Positions 1 to 10,019 of a stretch of DNA of 20,165 nt are shown here, piece by piece. Location: the IMG/VR virus record IMGVR_UViG_3300046804_003870, positions 1-20,165 of that record, one strand, 5' to 3'. The notes under the pieces were generated by a model that was given only the letters and a program-made list of their open reading frames with translations, ran no database searches and was not told the DNA's origin. Source of the stretch: a virus. The translations under genes were made by a program, and so were the position numbers. Positions within the stretch are counted from its first letter, which is position 1. Every line of letters begins with the position of its first letter.

Positions 1-813
1 GGTCCAATAAAACATCATTCCAAAGTAGAATCAAATTTCTTTGATAGTTACAATTTTGAAACAGGAGAAATGTATCAAGGCCCAAAAACAATACATATGA
101 GTTTCGATAGGACATGTAATTATAAATGTCCATCTTGTAGAATAGAAATGATTGTTGCTAATAGTGATAAAATAGAAAAAATAAATATTACAATTAAAGA
201 AATGGAATCTTTATATTCAAAAGATATAGAAATGATATATTGTTCAGGAACCGCAGACCCATTTGCTTCCGTTTCATATAGAAATTTTTTAAAAAAATTC
301 AATCCTAAAAAATATCCAAATTTAAAATCAATACATTTACACACAAATGCCAGTTTGTGGAATAAAGAAATGTGGGATTCAATGCCAAATGTACATAAAT
401 TTGTTAAAAGTTGTGAAATAAGTATTGATGCTGGTTCAAAATTTACATACGAAAATATAACAAGATTGGGTGGTAATTGGGATAATTTAATATCTAATCT
501 GAATTTTATTTCAACTATAAAAAGCATACAGAATGTAAAGTGTTCATTCGTAGTGCAGCAATCTAATTATATGGAAATGTCTGAATTTTTAAGATTAATT
601 ACTTCTATATTTGGTAACAAAACAAAAGTATTTTTTGGAAGAATAACTAATTGGGGAACATTTTCGGATGAAACATTTAAAATAATTGATGTGGGGAATG
701 TATCGCATTCAGAACATTCTTTATTTTTAGATGAATTTAAAAAGGTAGCCACAAATCCTTATGTTTTTCATAATATGTATGATTTGATAGAAATAAAAAA
801 ATCAATATTATAA
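1..813 (+). CDS. Radical SAM enzyme, 5' end outside window
   Basis: Probable radical S-adenosylmethionine enzyme; the substrate is unknown. The frame is open from the first base of the window, so the ATG at 70 is probably internal and the true start lies upstream. The motif CNYKCPSC (cysteines encoded about 39, 43 and 46 codons into the window) is the CX3CX2C pattern that holds the 4Fe-4S cluster. It follows a short beta-strand-like segment (KTIHMSFD), as is usual in this superfamily. A later YCSGTADPF segment fits the glycine-containing strand that binds SAM. No cysteine-rich SPASM cluster is visible at the C-terminus, so the twitch or extra-cluster part, if any, would be N-terminal and outside the window. 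The stop TAA shares one base with the ATG of the SGNH gene (TAATG). The superfamily call is firm; the reaction is not inferable. Confidence 0.85.
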   Translation, partial: GPIKHHSKVESNFFDSYNFETGEMYQGPKTIHMSFDRTCNYKCPSCRIEMIVANSDKIEKINITIKEMESLYSKDIEMIYCSGTADPFASVSYRNFLKKFNPKKYPNLKSIHLHTNASLWNKEMWDSMPNVHKFVKSCEISIDAGSKFTYENITRLGGNWDNLISNLNFISTIKSIQNVKCSFVVQQSNYMEMSEFLRLITSIFGNKTKVFFGRITNWGTFSDETFKIIDVGNVSHSEHSLFLDEFKKVATNPYVFHNMYDLIEIKKSIL

Positions 814-1436
814 TGAAACCAAATCTTTATATATGTGGTGATAGTTTCGTTGATTGGGATTTACCAGAAACACATTGGGCAGACTATTTAGCAAATCATT
901 ATAATATTGTTAAATTGGGTAAATATGGTTCCGATAATCATTCTATAATATATCAAACAGGTCAAATTAAAGATTATAAAGAAGGAGATAGAATAGTAAT
1001 AGTATTTACAGCTCCTGGTAGATTTCCAAGAAGATATTTTGGAGAAAGAGAAACCAATCACAATATAAAATATTTAAATTGGGAATGGTATAAAGATAAA
1101 TCATTTGCAAAAAAACTTTTAGAATTAAGAGTATCAGAAACAGAACATTGGTTAAGTGGAAATAGAAATAATGAAATACTTTTTATTAAAAAACTGAAAA
1201 TGTTTTATAAAGAATATAATCCCATATTTGTAACATGGAGTGATGATTTTTATAAAATGACTTCGGATTTTGTTGAATTAATAAAAGTAACATCCATAGC
1301 AGATGAAGGTGGAGACCCAATGGATTGGCATCCTGGTTGGAGAGGTTGTTATGAATTTTATAAAAAAATTTATAGTTTATTAAATATAGATGAACAAATT
1401 GTAGAATTTCAAAATAAAGTAAATACAATTATATGA
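813..1436 (+). CDS. SGNH/GDSL-type hydrolase-like protein
   Basis: A 207-residue protein with the landmarks of the SGNH fold. Block I is GDS at 9-11 with the candidate nucleophile Ser11. A Gly-containing block II is GKYGSDNHS (36-44, Gly39 and Asn42). The C-terminal block V is DWHP (Asp171, His173). These families cleave or transfer acyl esters on sugars, lipids or proteins; the substrate here is unknown. There is no signal peptide or membrane segment, so it probably acts in the cytoplasm. It starts on the last base of the preceding radical SAM stop codon, and its own stop overlaps the next start by four bases (ATGA), so the three genes look translationally coupled. A second SGNH protein is encoded at 9264-10019, but the two are not obviously close copies. 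Confidence 0.7.
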   Translation: MKPNLYICGDSFVDWDLPETHWADYLANHYNIVKLGKYGSDNHSIIYQTGQIKDYKEGDRIVIVFTAPGRFPRRYFGERETNHNIKYLNWEWYKDKSFAKKLLELRVSETEHWLSGNRNNEILFIKKLKMFYKEYNPIFVTWSDDFYKMTSDFVELIKVTSIADEGGDPMDWHPGWRGCYEFYKKIYSLLNIDEQIVEFQNKVNTII

Positions 1437-1951
1437 AATTGATAACGGATGAATTTAATTTTTTAATACAAGAATTAAAAAATACTAATATTTTAAATGA
1501 AGAAGAATTAAAATATGTAAAGTCCGCACACCCACAATTATATTATACTACTATAAATAAAAAAGATGAGGGTGTATCTTTGTTTACTGAAAAATCATTT
1601 ATTTATTCTTTACAAAACAAAAATTTGAATGAATTCATTTGTGAAAAATTTGAAGAACCATTAGAGAACTTATATATGATTCATAGATTATTATATGGGG
1701 TTTCTGGTTATGCAAGGGCACATAAAGATAGATTTACTACGCACAAAACAATAAGCTTAATCCTATCAGATGAGTTTACCGGTGGGGATATGTATATAAA
1801 TGATGAAAAGATAGATTTAAACAAAAATGGTGAATATGTTGTTTTTAATGGTGGAAAAGATTTACATGAAGTTAAACCAATTCTAACAGGTATTAGAGAT
1901 GTACTTATAGTTTGGTTTTCCAAAAAAAATTCTCAATTTTCTTTAATATAA
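1433..1951 (+). CDS. 2-oxoglutarate/Fe(II)-dependent oxygenase (prolyl-4-hydroxylase-like)
   Basis: A 172-residue non-heme iron dioxygenase of the P4H-like class. The HxD motif is His97-Lys-Asp99. The distal iron ligand is His145 in DLHEV, and Arg155 in GIRDVLIVWF is placed to bind the 2-oxoglutarate carboxylate. The segment ISLILSDEFTGGDMYI (107-122) is the typical core strand with a GG(D) turn. All catalytic residues are present, so the enzyme is likely active. It would hydroxylate a protein, small molecule or nucleic-acid base, coupled to decarboxylation of 2-oxoglutarate; the substrate cannot be told. Such genes are common in T4-like marine phages. It closes the overlapping radical SAM-SGNH-oxygenase cassette and is followed by a promoter-like site at 1953-1984. 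Confidence 0.85.
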   Translation: MKLITDEFNFLIQELKNTNILNEEELKYVKSAHPQLYYTTINKKDEGVSLFTEKSFIYSLQNKNLNEFICEKFEEPLENLYMIHRLLYGVSGYARAHKDRFTTHKTISLILSDEFTGGDMYINDEKIDLNKNGEYVVFNGGKDLHEVKPILTGIRDVLIVWFSKKNSQFSLI

Positions 1952-4514: not shown

Positions 4515-5402
4515 ATGAAGATAGGATATGCATGTATTAATATGACAATGGGTAAGCACGTAAGTACAAATCGTGCTATGGTTAAAAAAACCTTTCATAC
4601 TAAAGGATTGGATTATGTTTCCGAACTTGCACTTAAAAATGCATCGGATATTATCAAAATTTTAGAGTGGAATAGAATGAACGGAATTAAATTCTTTCGG
4701 TTATCATCTGCTATTATTCCTTGGGGTGACCATATTGATTTAACTCAACTAAAAGATTACAAAGAAATCAAAGCAGAACTGAAAAAAGCAGGTGATTTTG
4801 CTAAATTTCATAATATGCGTATAAATTCTCATCCTGGTCCGTTTTGTGTACTAACTTCACCAAAAGAAGAGGTTGTATTAAACTCAATCGCTGATTTGGA
4901 ACTACATGGTAAGATATTTGATATGATGGGGTTAGAGAAATCACCTTTCAATAACATTAATATTCATTGTAATGGTGTTTATGGGGATAAAAAGTCCGCA
5001 ATGGATAGATTTATCAAAAATTTCAAAAGGTGTTCTAATTCGGTTAAAAAGAGGCTTACAATCGAAAATGATGATAAGGCTACAATGTATTCGGTTAAAG
5101 ATTTAATGTATATTCACAAAGAAACAGGTATTCCAATTGTATTTGATTATCATCATCACCAATTTTGTACAGGTGATTTGACAGAAGAGCAAGCACTTAA
5201 ACTTGCAGCAACAACCTGGCCAAAAGATATCGGACAAGAAGTACATTATTCCGAAAGTAAAGCATTGCACGAAAATAATTCAAAACTAAAACCGCAAGCT
5301 CATTCCGATTATATTAATTCTCTTCCAAATACTTACGGATTGGATGTAGATATTATGGTTGAAGCAAAAGCAAAAGAATTATCAATATTAAAATTTATAT
5401 AA
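4515..5402 (+). CDS. uvsE: UV-damage endonuclease UvsE/UvdE
   Basis: A 295-residue UV-damage endonuclease, which nicks DNA 5' of cyclobutane dimers, 6-4 photoproducts and some abasic sites. It has a TIM-barrel fold with a metal cluster. Family landmarks are all present: N-terminal KIGYACIN, FFRLSSAIIPW (60-70), NSHPGPF (104-110, His106), IHCNG (150-154, His151), IENDD (183-187, Glu184), FDYHHHQF (210-217, Asp211 and the His run), VHYSES (243-248, His244), and DIMVEAKAKE (279-288, Glu283). Length is normal for the family. The conserved first strand begins directly at Met1, so a later start is unlikely. It would let the phage repair its own genome in sunlit water. It is the first gene of a long operon and is followed by the next ATG after a single base. 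Confidence 0.93.
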   Translation: MKIGYACINMTMGKHVSTNRAMVKKTFHTKGLDYVSELALKNASDIIKILEWNRMNGIKFFRLSSAIIPWGDHIDLTQLKDYKEIKAELKKAGDFAKFHNMRINSHPGPFCVLTSPKEEVVLNSIADLELHGKIFDMMGLEKSPFNNINIHCNGVYGDKKSAMDRFIKNFKRCSNSVKKRLTIENDDKATMYSVKDLMYIHKETGIPIVFDYHHHQFCTGDLTEEQALKLAATTWPKDIGQEVHYSESKALHENNSKLKPQAHSDYINSLPNTYGLDVDIMVEAKAKELSILKFI

Positions 5403-7569: not shown

Positions 7570-9264
7570 ATGATACAATTAGGTTTATCAGGATTCTACC
7601 ATGATTCCGCAGCAGCATTGGTAATTGATGGTAAAGTTATAGCAGCAATCGAAGAAGAGAAACTATCCGGCGTAAAGCATGATAGTTCTTTTCCGTTTAA
7701 GGCAATCCAATGGGTTTTAAATTATGCACAAATCACAATTGATGAAGTTGATATGGTTTGTTGGTATGAGAACCCTCAATTAAAGTTTGATAGAGTTAAA
7801 AAAACCGTTGGTAAGTGGAATGGATTTAGATATCCAAAACAATGGAAAAAATTTAAGGAAAGATGGAATATGGATGAGGGTGCATTGAAACCTTTATTAT
7901 GGTCTATTGGATATGAAGGTATAATAACATATACAAAACATCATCTTTCTCATTTAGCATTTTCATTTTATACATCACCGTTTGATTCCGCTATAGGAGT
8001 TTCGGTAGATGGTGTTGGTGAAGAAGAAACCATATTAGCAACTCTTTGTAAAAATGGTAAATTTCAAAATTTGGCCAAAGTAACATTTCCAAACTCATTG
8101 GGATTAGTATATTCAGCATTTACTGCATATTTAGGATTTAAACCAAACGAAGGTGAGTATAAAGTAATGGGATTGGCACCATACGGAAATTCAGAAAAAT
8201 ATGAATATGTTTTTGATAAAATAGAAAAATACGATAGACTTGGTGAAGTATTAGAAATCAATCAAAAATATTTTACATACAGAACTTCTGAAACGGATAT
8301 GTTTAATCAAAAATTAATTGATTTAATAGGTTTTCCTCCTCGTTTTAAAGGTGATTCAATTGAACAACATCATAAAGATTTAGCAGCTGCACTACAAAGA
8401 TGGTACGAAAAATGTTTTTATTTTATCCTTAACAGAGTAAATAGTAATTGGAGTAGTGATAATTTAGTATTAGGTGGTGGATGTGCATATAATGGAACTG
8501 CAAATGGTAAGATTAAACAACATACATCATTCAAAAATGTTTGGATTCCATTTGCACCATCTGATGCAGGTTCGGCAATTGGTGCATGCTTATATCATTG
8601 GCATATAACATTGGGTAATCCAAAAGTAAAAGGTGGAGATAATCAATCACCATATTTGGGCCCTGATTGGGATGTAAAGGTTGGGCAAATAGTAAAACAA
8701 AATAAAAAATTATGTGTTGAGGTTGCACAGGATGAAGAACGTTTATGTGAAATTGTTGCAAAATTTATAAAAAAAGGAAAAATAGTAGGATGGTTTCAAG
8801 GTAGAACAGAATTTGGTGCAAGAGCATTGGGTAATCGTTCTATATTAGGAAATCCACATTTAGAAGATATTAGAGATAGAATTAATAAGGTTGTCAAAAA
8901 GAGAGAAATGTTTAGACCATTTGCTCCATCGGTAACACAAGAAGATTATACAAAGTATTTTAAATCAGAAGAGGATGTTCCATATATGAATCAAGTTGTT
9001 GAAGTTATTTCCAAAACACCAATACCTTCTGTAACACATGTGGATAATAGTGCAAGAATTCAAACGGTTACAAAAGAACAAAATCCACTTTATTATAAAT
9101 TACTAAAAGAATTCGAAAAACTAACGGGAACACCCATTCTATTGAATACATCATTTAATTTAAAAGACCATACAATGACAAATGATCCAGAAAAAGCTAT
9201 ATGGACTTTTTTAAATTGTGATATGGATATATTGGTTATTAATAATTTTATAATTTATAAGTAA
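7570..9264 (+). CDS. Carbamoyltransferase, NodU/CmcH (TobZ-type) family
   Basis: A 564-residue, full-length two-domain O-carbamoyltransferase. The N-terminal domain has LGLSGFYHDSAAALV (4-18) and EEEKLSGVKHD (28-38). It also has the metal-binding HHLSH cluster (His124, His125, His128), SVDGVGE and an ASKHA-like LGGGCAYNG segment (about 299-307). The C-terminal YrdC-like domain has GRTEFGARALGNRSILG (411-427) and REMFRPFAPS, the usual signature. Family members move a carbamoyl group from carbamoyl phosphate, via carbamoyl-adenylate, to a hydroxyl of a sugar or antibiotic. Relatives from phage metagenomes were reported to carbamoylate 5-hydroxymethylcytosine in DNA. The substrate here is not shown. 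The TAA overlaps the next SGNH gene by one base. Confidence 0.93.
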   Translation: MIQLGLSGFYHDSAAALVIDGKVIAAIEEEKLSGVKHDSSFPFKAIQWVLNYAQITIDEVDMVCWYENPQLKFDRVKKTVGKWNGFRYPKQWKKFKERWNMDEGALKPLLWSIGYEGIITYTKHHLSHLAFSFYTSPFDSAIGVSVDGVGEEETILATLCKNGKFQNLAKVTFPNSLGLVYSAFTAYLGFKPNEGEYKVMGLAPYGNSEKYEYVFDKIEKYDRLGEVLEINQKYFTYRTSETDMFNQKLIDLIGFPPRFKGDSIEQHHKDLAAALQRWYEKCFYFILNRVNSNWSSDNLVLGGGCAYNGTANGKIKQHTSFKNVWIPFAPSDAGSAIGACLYHWHITLGNPKVKGGDNQSPYLGPDWDVKVGQIVKQNKKLCVEVAQDEERLCEIVAKFIKKGKIVGWFQGRTEFGARALGNRSILGNPHLEDIRDRINKVVKKREMFRPFAPSVTQEDYTKYFKSEEDVPYMNQVVEVISKTPIPSVTHVDNSARIQTVTKEQNPLYYKLLKEFEKLTGTPILLNTSFNLKDHTMTNDPEKAIWTFLNCDMDILVINNFIIYK

Positions 9265-10019
9265 TGATATTACATGCATATGGGGATAGTTGGACAGAGG
9301 GTGAAGGTTGTAATTCAAATGAAGAAAAAAAATTAAAAAAGCAAGACCTAATTGTATATCGAAATCAACATTCTTGGGTAAAAATATTAGGAGAAAAATT
9401 AGGATTAAATTGGATTAACAATGGTAAAAGTGGAAATCCAAATGCTGTTATATTTAATCAAATCATAGATGATGTTACAAACGGTAGAATTAAAAGAGGA
9501 GATTTTGTTATCATTTTATGGAGTTCTTCTTTAAGAGATTACGCAGCTTTTTTACCAAGACAACAATGGGTTAGTTGGTCCGTAAAGCATTTAATAAATC
9601 TACCTGAAAAGTTTACTAATTCATATAAGAGTAATAATTCAACATATGATTTATTTCTTTCCGAATATAAATCGTTTTTTTTAAATGAAATGTTTAATCA
9701 AAATTATTACAACATTGTTAATCAAAACTACATAATATTTTTACAAAAATTATTTGAATATTATGATATAAAATATATTATGGCAGATGCTTTTGATAAA
9801 ATGGTTTCTGATTTGGATTTAAAGGATGATATTACACATCTTATTAATAAATCTATTTATTGGAATTTTATGAATAGCACTATGAAAGATTATTTGGAAC
9901 AAACAAAAACGGATTGTTTTGAAAATACAGATAATCCGGGTAAACACCCAAACAAATTAGGTTATAAACTAATAAGTGAAGAATTTTATAATTATATAGT
10001 AAAGAATGTAATATTATGA
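9264..10019 (+). CDS. SGNH/GDSL-type hydrolase-like protein (second copy)
   Basis: A 251-residue protein with SGNH landmarks: GDSWTEG (7-13, candidate nucleophile Ser9), NNGKSGNPN (52-60, Gly and Asn of blocks II and III), a hydrophobic strand VIILWSSS (82-89) and HPNKLGYKLIS (228-238, His228, with Asp223 five residues before). The family hydrolyses or transfers acyl esters. It overlaps the carbamoyltransferase stop by one base and the next gene by four (ATGA). This hints that it works with the carbamoyltransferase on the same decorated molecule, or is a virion-associated esterase made with the baseplate genes downstream. It is longer than the SGNH protein at 813-1436 and differs outside the motifs. 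Confidence 0.72.
   Translation: MILHAYGDSWTEGEGCNSNEEKKLKKQDLIVYRNQHSWVKILGEKLGLNWINNGKSGNPNAVIFNQIIDDVTNGRIKRGDFVIILWSSSLRDYAAFLPRQQWVSWSVKHLINLPEKFTNSYKSNNSTYDLFLSEYKSFFLNEMFNQNYYNIVNQNYIIFLQKLFEYYDIKYIMADAFDKMVSDLDLKDDITHLINKSIYWNFMNSTMKDYLEQTKTDCFENTDNPGKHPNKLGYKLISEEFYNYIVKNVIL

Follow-up and report, generated by a model that had tools for sequence, protein, structure and literature searches.

RiPP gene clusters encode a longer precursor ending in a short Cys-rich peptide, together with many neighbouring tailoring enzymes, among them radical SAM enzymes, 2OG oxygenases and halogenases. The viral gene module described here resembles them in its neighbouring enzymes and probably also in its precursor. 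It is arranged around a protein that we call f3, in which the part preceding the putative core peptide is not a short leader but a protein of 460 residues that includes a Hint domain; moreover, the module enzymes have a common C-terminal tag, and the module was found, among the collections searched, in phage contigs only. Conopeptides, which belong to animal venom, are disulfide-rich and contain halogenated Trp, sulfated Tyr and hydroxylated residues, whereas the modifications made by the f3 module are predicted from gene families alone. Hint, intein and BIL domains, such as BIL2 of Tetrahymena BUBL1 (PDB 6y75, 6tmm), have the same fold as the f3 model (Z 15.8) and the same C-terminal His-Asn, but the N-terminal nucleophile is absent in 64 aligned single-Hint f3 proteins. 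VirX1, the flavin halogenase of cyanophage Syn10 (PMC8407142), is, like the halogenase of the module, a phage-encoded enzyme of the tryptophan halogenase type; the excerpted text of PMC8407142 names no natural substrate for it, and a tblastn search with the module halogenase matched Syn10, among others, at 27.7% identity. Pelagibacter phage HTVC008M has a halogenase and five 2OG oxygenases nearby, which unlike the module enzymes lack the tag (0/6). Searches of the open-licence PMC literature gave, among the matches listed, no description of a module of tagged enzymes with f3.

The window, by which we mean the whole stretch of DNA analysed, is a viral fragment of 20,165 bases. An earlier note, made from the sequence, had read three overlapping enzyme genes at its start as one cassette. 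The features are as follows.

1..813, + strand: radical SAM protein, its 5' part cut off at the contig end (open reading frame; 270 of about 354 aa)
115..138, + strand: CX3CX2C motif, C39-x3-C43-x2-C46 of the translated piece (from the sequence; invariant in 11 aligned)
796..810, + strand: C-terminal tag KKSIL of the radical SAM protein (family tagged in 27/30 distinct complete members)
813..1436, + strand: SGNH-like protein, 207 aa (GDS and D-W-H motifs)
1419..1433, + strand: C-terminal tag VNTII of the SGNH-like protein (family tagged 13/13)
1433..1951, + strand: 2OG-Fe(II) oxygenase, 172 aa (HxD...H...R: His97, Asp99, His145, Arg155)
1934..1948, + strand: C-terminal tag QFSLI of the 2OG oxygenase (clustered 2OG family tagged 139/156)
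Downstream of the trio: HD protein, Hsp20, UvdE, peptide deformylase, NodU-type carbamoyltransferase, second SGNH protein, baseplate genes

The description of the three genes in that note largely stands. The open reading frames bear out its overlaps, TAATG (1 base, at 813) and ATGA (4 bases, 1433-1436), and the motifs of the three proteins are kept in relatives: the intact CX3CX2C cluster in 11/11 aligned sequences, the GDS and D-W-H motifs of SGNH hydrolases in 9/9, and the 2OG metal triad HxD...H together with the Arg for 2OG in 14/14 aligned proteins, 5 of them divergent, so that all four ligands named in the note are invariant. The genes are those of three enzymes as it read them, except that the radical SAM gene is incomplete: base 1 falls within it, and full-length relatives, mostly of 354-355 aa, have about 84 extra N-terminal residues with conserved Cys. 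Pfam scores are below the curated cut-offs, 20.8 bits against 29.5 for Radical_SAM on the truncated piece and 22.5 bits against 27 for 2OG-FeII_Oxy_3 (PF13640) on the window 2OG protein, and thus the radical SAM and 2OG assignments rest on motif conservation. The SGNH-like protein, with no Pfam family and no PDB sequence match, is likewise assigned by its motifs. For a full-length relative of the radical SAM protein (in locus L002), the closest NCBIfam model is N_Twi_rSAM (NF033640), which spans the N-terminal Cys region of that relative and scores 56.7 bits with it and 37.3 bits with the window protein, against a cut-off of 170; matches to this model below the cut-off also occur in 14/14 control genomes. 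With the 2OG alignment as a profile, the best PDB matches are PKHD-type, prolyl and lysyl hydroxylases (E 7e-9 to 1e-3), from which the window enzyme differs in being a short phage protein, and Tet-like dioxygenases are matched more weakly (5e-5). PDB sequence searches with the alignments of f3, radical SAM, SGNH and ST1 (a small P-loop protein of the module) gave nothing usable. In GenBank phages, the radical SAM and SGNH proteins have no match by nucleic-acid or protein search, and the 2OG protein matches 6 cyanophage records at about 25-30% identity.

Is the trio itself a unit? Relatives were taken from viral-contig scans, which gave 16 loci with the radical SAM gene and 23 with the 2OG gene, and adjacency was counted over distinct protein sequences, fragments included. 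The SGNH gene is followed by this 2OG gene, with a 4-base overlap, in 13/13 distinct cases, and 12/16 of the 2OG genes have an SGNH gene directly before them; the co-occurrence that the earlier note proposed to look for thus holds for these two genes but not for the radical SAM gene, which directly precedes an SGNH gene in 2/33 distinct cases (4 of these 33 run up to a contig edge). An SGNH gene lies within four genes of it in 6/33, and its most frequent predecessor is ST1 (20/33). The trio in its exact form occurs in the window and again in L013/L014. The conserved unit is the SGNH-2OG pair, not the trio, and the expectation that the three genes would be conserved together failed on the radical SAM gene, which often stands apart. 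Overlap with the next gene is seen in 361/632 genes of the tagged families and in 158/469 of other families; being so common in these loci, it says little by itself.

The natural unit for the trio genes is a larger module around f3. Its content in relatives includes 2OG oxygenases, SGNH proteins, sulfotransferase-like proteins, the radical SAM protein and often a tryptophan halogenase, and its common order is halogenase - 2OG - ST2 - f6 - f3 - SGNH2 - 2OG - ST1 - radical SAM, with losses and additions. ST1 and ST2 match nothing in Pfam, NCBIfam or PDB, and are putatively labelled sulfotransferase-like from their P-loop motifs. The f6 family (L009:5544-5831), with no family match above cut-off, consists of small Cys-containing tagged proteins of about 95 aa that adjoin f3 in most modules, possibly as an adaptor. 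In the nearest relative of the window, L002 (radical SAM 90% identical), f3 lies five genes upstream of the radical SAM gene and the downstream genes are the same as in the window, to the carbamoyltransferase and beyond; the window-type SGNH-2OG pair is absent from this module, and no halogenase match was found in the 238-kb record. The window record contains no f3, ending before any such gene would be reached, and the relatives suggest that its own phage has one. Tailoring enzymes encoded beside the putative precursor, as expected of a RiPP locus, are to be seen in the gene maps of relatives, the record of the window being cut before f3. At L032:3437-8519, the neighbours of a tagged SGNH-2OG pair are a T4-type RNA ligase and an AAA protein like ClpA/B; f3 was not found in this 43.6-kb fragment.

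The original view, that the three enzymes form one small glycan- or nucleobase-editing pathway independent of f3, can draw on the overlaps and on the fixed SGNH-2OG pair, which in L032 stands away from f3. It is opposed by the usual separation of the radical SAM and SGNH genes and by the tag, which all three enzymes have in common with the larger module, and we regard it as very unlikely. What survives of it is the coupling of the genes and, probably, their service in a single pathway acting on one kind of molecule; the trio is not the unit of that pathway, and the C-terminal tag, which had been missed, ties the three enzymes to the larger module.

The tag is a likeness of C-termini, roughly K-[S/T/K]-[L/I]-[I/L], across proteins of different superfamilies. 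We scored it at the protein end by the pattern [KNSTQREDF][KSTNQYHRG][LIMVF][LI]. Both the pattern and the division into families were set after inspecting the C-termini, and the families are grouped by the tag itself: a tagged family is one in which at least half of the distinct members have it, families with fewer than five distinct members being excluded. So defined, 14 families have the tag in 529/640 proteins and 34 other local families in 19/483; shuffling the last 40 residues 200 times gave a mean of 10.7 tagged proteins and a maximum of 19, as against the 529 observed. Position -4 is K in 55%, position -3 is S, T or K in 32, 28 and 18%, position -2 is L or I in 71 and 23%, and position -1 is I or L in 74 and 23%. 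Two checks are independent of the grouping. One is gene distance from f3: the tag frequency is 68-83% at -4 to -1 and 69-87% at +1 to +4, and 7-29% at 8 to 12 genes away. The other is a set of later-fetched proteins, in which the tag is found in ST1 (19/21), the main 2OG cluster (49/55), radical SAM (8/9), ST2 (17/20), f6 (16/20) and 2OG217 (15/19), as compared with CTPt (0/12), p70 (0/11), Hsp20 (0/7) and unlabelled proteins (23/251). The halogenase tag fails to repeat, with 24/43 in the first set and 0/10 in the later one. In the window, the radical SAM, SGNH and 2OG proteins are all tagged, and among 20 other genes checked only the HD protein (RQDNIL) matches, which we ascribe to chance because its family is tagged in 2/22. 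A tag common to a dozen unrelated phage enzyme families near f3 needs explanation, whatever their substrate.

Could such a tag arise from the overlap of stop and start codons alone? Where two genes overlap by ATGA, the last codon must end in A, which favours Ile (ATA) or Leu (TTA) in AT-rich DNA. However, the tag is equally frequent where the next gene is more than 20 bases away (107/133) and where it overlaps (315/361), with 102/138 at gaps of 1-20 bases; among overlapping genes outside the tagged families, 9/158 have it; and the codons vary, six being used for Ser and six for Leu. This artefact was rejected on the gap, other-family and codon counts, its probability being close to nil, and the tag is a peptide-level feature, not a DNA-level one.

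Alternatively, the tag may be a degradation or localisation signal, recognized by a host protease or the membrane rather than by f3, so that the enzymes would share only their turnover or place. Short C-termini that are basic and then hydrophobic are known types of degron, and f3 itself is untagged (0/93). A general degron would not explain why the tag declines with gene distance from f3, why few other genes in these loci have it, or why only 15/305 open reading frames of the L002 record match it, 6 of the 15 inside the 7-kb module. We hold this explanation to be distinctly unlikely. For docking, by contrast with such a signal, the first candidate for the binding partner of the tag is f3, since no other module protein is consistently without the tag.

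What, then, is f3? Its relatives occur in at least 179 viral-contig stretches (another scan gave 140, and the sets overlap), and 80 loci from each of two overlapping scans were analysed. No match was found in GenBank phages or plasmids, and a pattern-limited search of GTDB genome contigs confirmed none among 29 pattern matches. A structure model from 64 sequences (mean pLDDT 81.3) was used, a model from 16 (pLDDT 47.5) being left aside. According to this model, f3 has a Hint/intein fold: the region of about 285-469 resembles inteins and a BIL domain with Z up to 15.8 over 140 residues, and Foldseek gives a hedgehog/intein match (E 1e-7). The end of the domain, His465-Asn466, is invariant in 64/64. 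The residue aligned with residue 1 of inteins is His in 50, Ile in 13 and Phe in 1 of the 64, never Cys, Ser or Thr, and the domain is therefore classed as a Hint fold, not an intein. The residue following Asn is C/S/T-like in 34/64 and another in 30/64, and 4 members of the single-Hint set match Pfam Intein_splicing weakly (best E 0.011). By the mechanism of inteins, a C-terminal His-Asn without an N-terminal nucleophile is expected to give C-terminal cleavage and not splicing; as f3 has no such nucleophile, only cleavage at its C-terminal side would be expected by this analogy. The N-terminal part of f3 is probably ATP-grasp-like, a label drawn from motifs, from weak RimK matches in 2/64 and from low-TM Foldseek matches such as that to 3k1t (E 5e-4, TM 0.25).

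Past His-Asn, 88 of the 93 distinct f3 proteins end in a Trp/Tyr-rich, Cys-rich tail of 25-33 residues, with six Cys in 80/88 and one to four Trp in 81/88. One of the others, in L045, has a different C-terminus, and the remaining four are two-Hint variants, in which a second Hint domain comes directly after the Cys-rich segment:

L149:10001-11926
L161:10001-11920
L163:10001-11947
L175:2076-4001

The second Hint of these variants is above the Pfam cut-off (PF14890, 40.5-47.4 bits against 35.8) and canonical, with Cys first and Asn last. Being placed between two Hint domains, the Cys-rich segment could be released at both ends or even cyclised.

From the tag and the architecture of f3, both of which are shown by sequence, we infer a substrate, a mode of docking and a product as follows. 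The trio would be the downstream end of a phage RiPP-like peptide-modification module, in which tagged enzymes modify the tail of f3 and the Hint domain releases it, a pathway to which we give about an even chance. Serving as both precursor and carrier of a Cys-rich peptide, f3 would gather the tagged enzymes, this being the simplest way in which they could be brought to act on its tail. There, the 2OG oxygenases would hydroxylate side chains, the sulfotransferase-like proteins would act on Tyr, the halogenase, where present, on Trp, and the radical SAM enzyme would perform a radical step, such as a cross-link of Cys or of an aromatic residue. The SGNH-2OG pair may act on one residue: hydroxylation, then transfer of an acyl group to the new hydroxyl or its removal from there. 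Cyclisation of Asn in the Hint domain would then release the peptide, which in two-Hint variants may be freed at both ends or cyclised. Candidate roles of the peptide are antibacterial action, exclusion of superinfection or service as part of the tail tip. The earlier note had left the choice between a glycan, a peptide and a nucleobase; of the three, it is the peptide that fits this explanation best.

If this is true, the complete route to decorated Cys-rich peptides is encoded by lytic-type phages, a transferable tag of four to five residues could serve to recruit enzymes to a chosen peptide, and one kind of phage tryptophan halogenase, at least, gains a natural substrate. A wider reading, which we put forward as possible but doubtful, is that the tag works as a common docking code, through which any enzyme could join the self-cleaving carrier f3, and that phages swap enzymes to make hypermodified disulfide-rich mini-peptides, some of them backbone-cyclised between two Hints. 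In the two-Hint variants this would be like the circular ligation by natural split inteins, and the recruitment of enzymes would be unlike the recognition of a leader peptide. The tag on a dozen unrelated enzyme families is directly testable, even if the guess at the substrate is wrong.

Several observations count against the peptide pathway. The SGNH-2OG pair of L032 stands without f3; the window record has no f3; L002 has f3 but neither a halogenase nor the window-type pair; the halogenase tag is absent from the later set; the 2OG profile also matches Tet-like DNA dioxygenases; and the glycosyltransferases and methyltransferases near some modules would suit a glycan as well. One line of evidence in favour of the pathway comes from the halogenase, whose assignment as a flavin-dependent tryptophan halogenase is secure as judged from its sequence match to PF04820 (297.8 bits, cut-off 21, E 2e-88). 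Trp is present in the f3 tail in 32/32 loci with a halogenase and in 13/19 without, where absence means none within about 9 kb inside the locus (Fisher p 0.0015, uncorrected for kinship); this count omits L149, L161 and L163 (halogenase and Trp) and L045 (Trp, no halogenase). An earlier count was 27/0/10/4 (p 0.0099). Three halogenase loci seemingly without Trp (32/3/13/6, p 0.053) were discarded as exceptions, since they are really two-Hint variants in which the core had been misplaced. On the f3 tree there are about three halogenase changes and two Trp changes, and both Trp losses fall in halogenase-free lineages; with so few changes the link is weak, and we regard it as only suggestive. No halogenase is present in the window.

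The tagged enzymes may instead act on a component of the virion or on a surface glycan, such as a tail fibre or a polysaccharide of the host envelope, f3 being a structural or tip protein and the tag an address to the site of assembly. Several neighbours point this way. A 1307-aa tail-fibre protein, with Peptidase_S74 over the cut-off (44.8 bits), comes after the module in L066; in the f3 of L045 (L045:10001-11746) the Cys-rich segment is followed by a stretch that matches a virion structural phrog (E 4e-6) and, below the cut-off, Peptidase_S74 (E 0.065), perhaps a chaperone; and genes for a glycosyltransferase/FkbM protein (906 aa) and GT9 come after several modules. However, the tag is found in none of the 906-aa glycosyltransferases (0/8), MT219 proteins (0/8) or GT9 proteins (0/4), which places the glycan genes outside the tagged set; the carbamoyltransferase, though present, is tagged in 0/15; a tryptophan halogenase fits a peptide better than a glycan; and L066 offers the only annotated tail-fibre neighbour. 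Modification of the virion or of a glycan is in our judgement unlikely.

Some further genes of the window may be mentioned. At 7570-10019, the untagged NodU-type carbamoyltransferase gene overlaps that of the second SGNH protein, which belongs to the SGNH2 family and ends in KNVIL. The gp6-like protein is closest to those of Microcystis phage Mel-JY01 (43%) and Flavobacterium phages (40%), and a UvdE UV-endonuclease, well above its Pfam cut-off, is encoded at 4515-5402.
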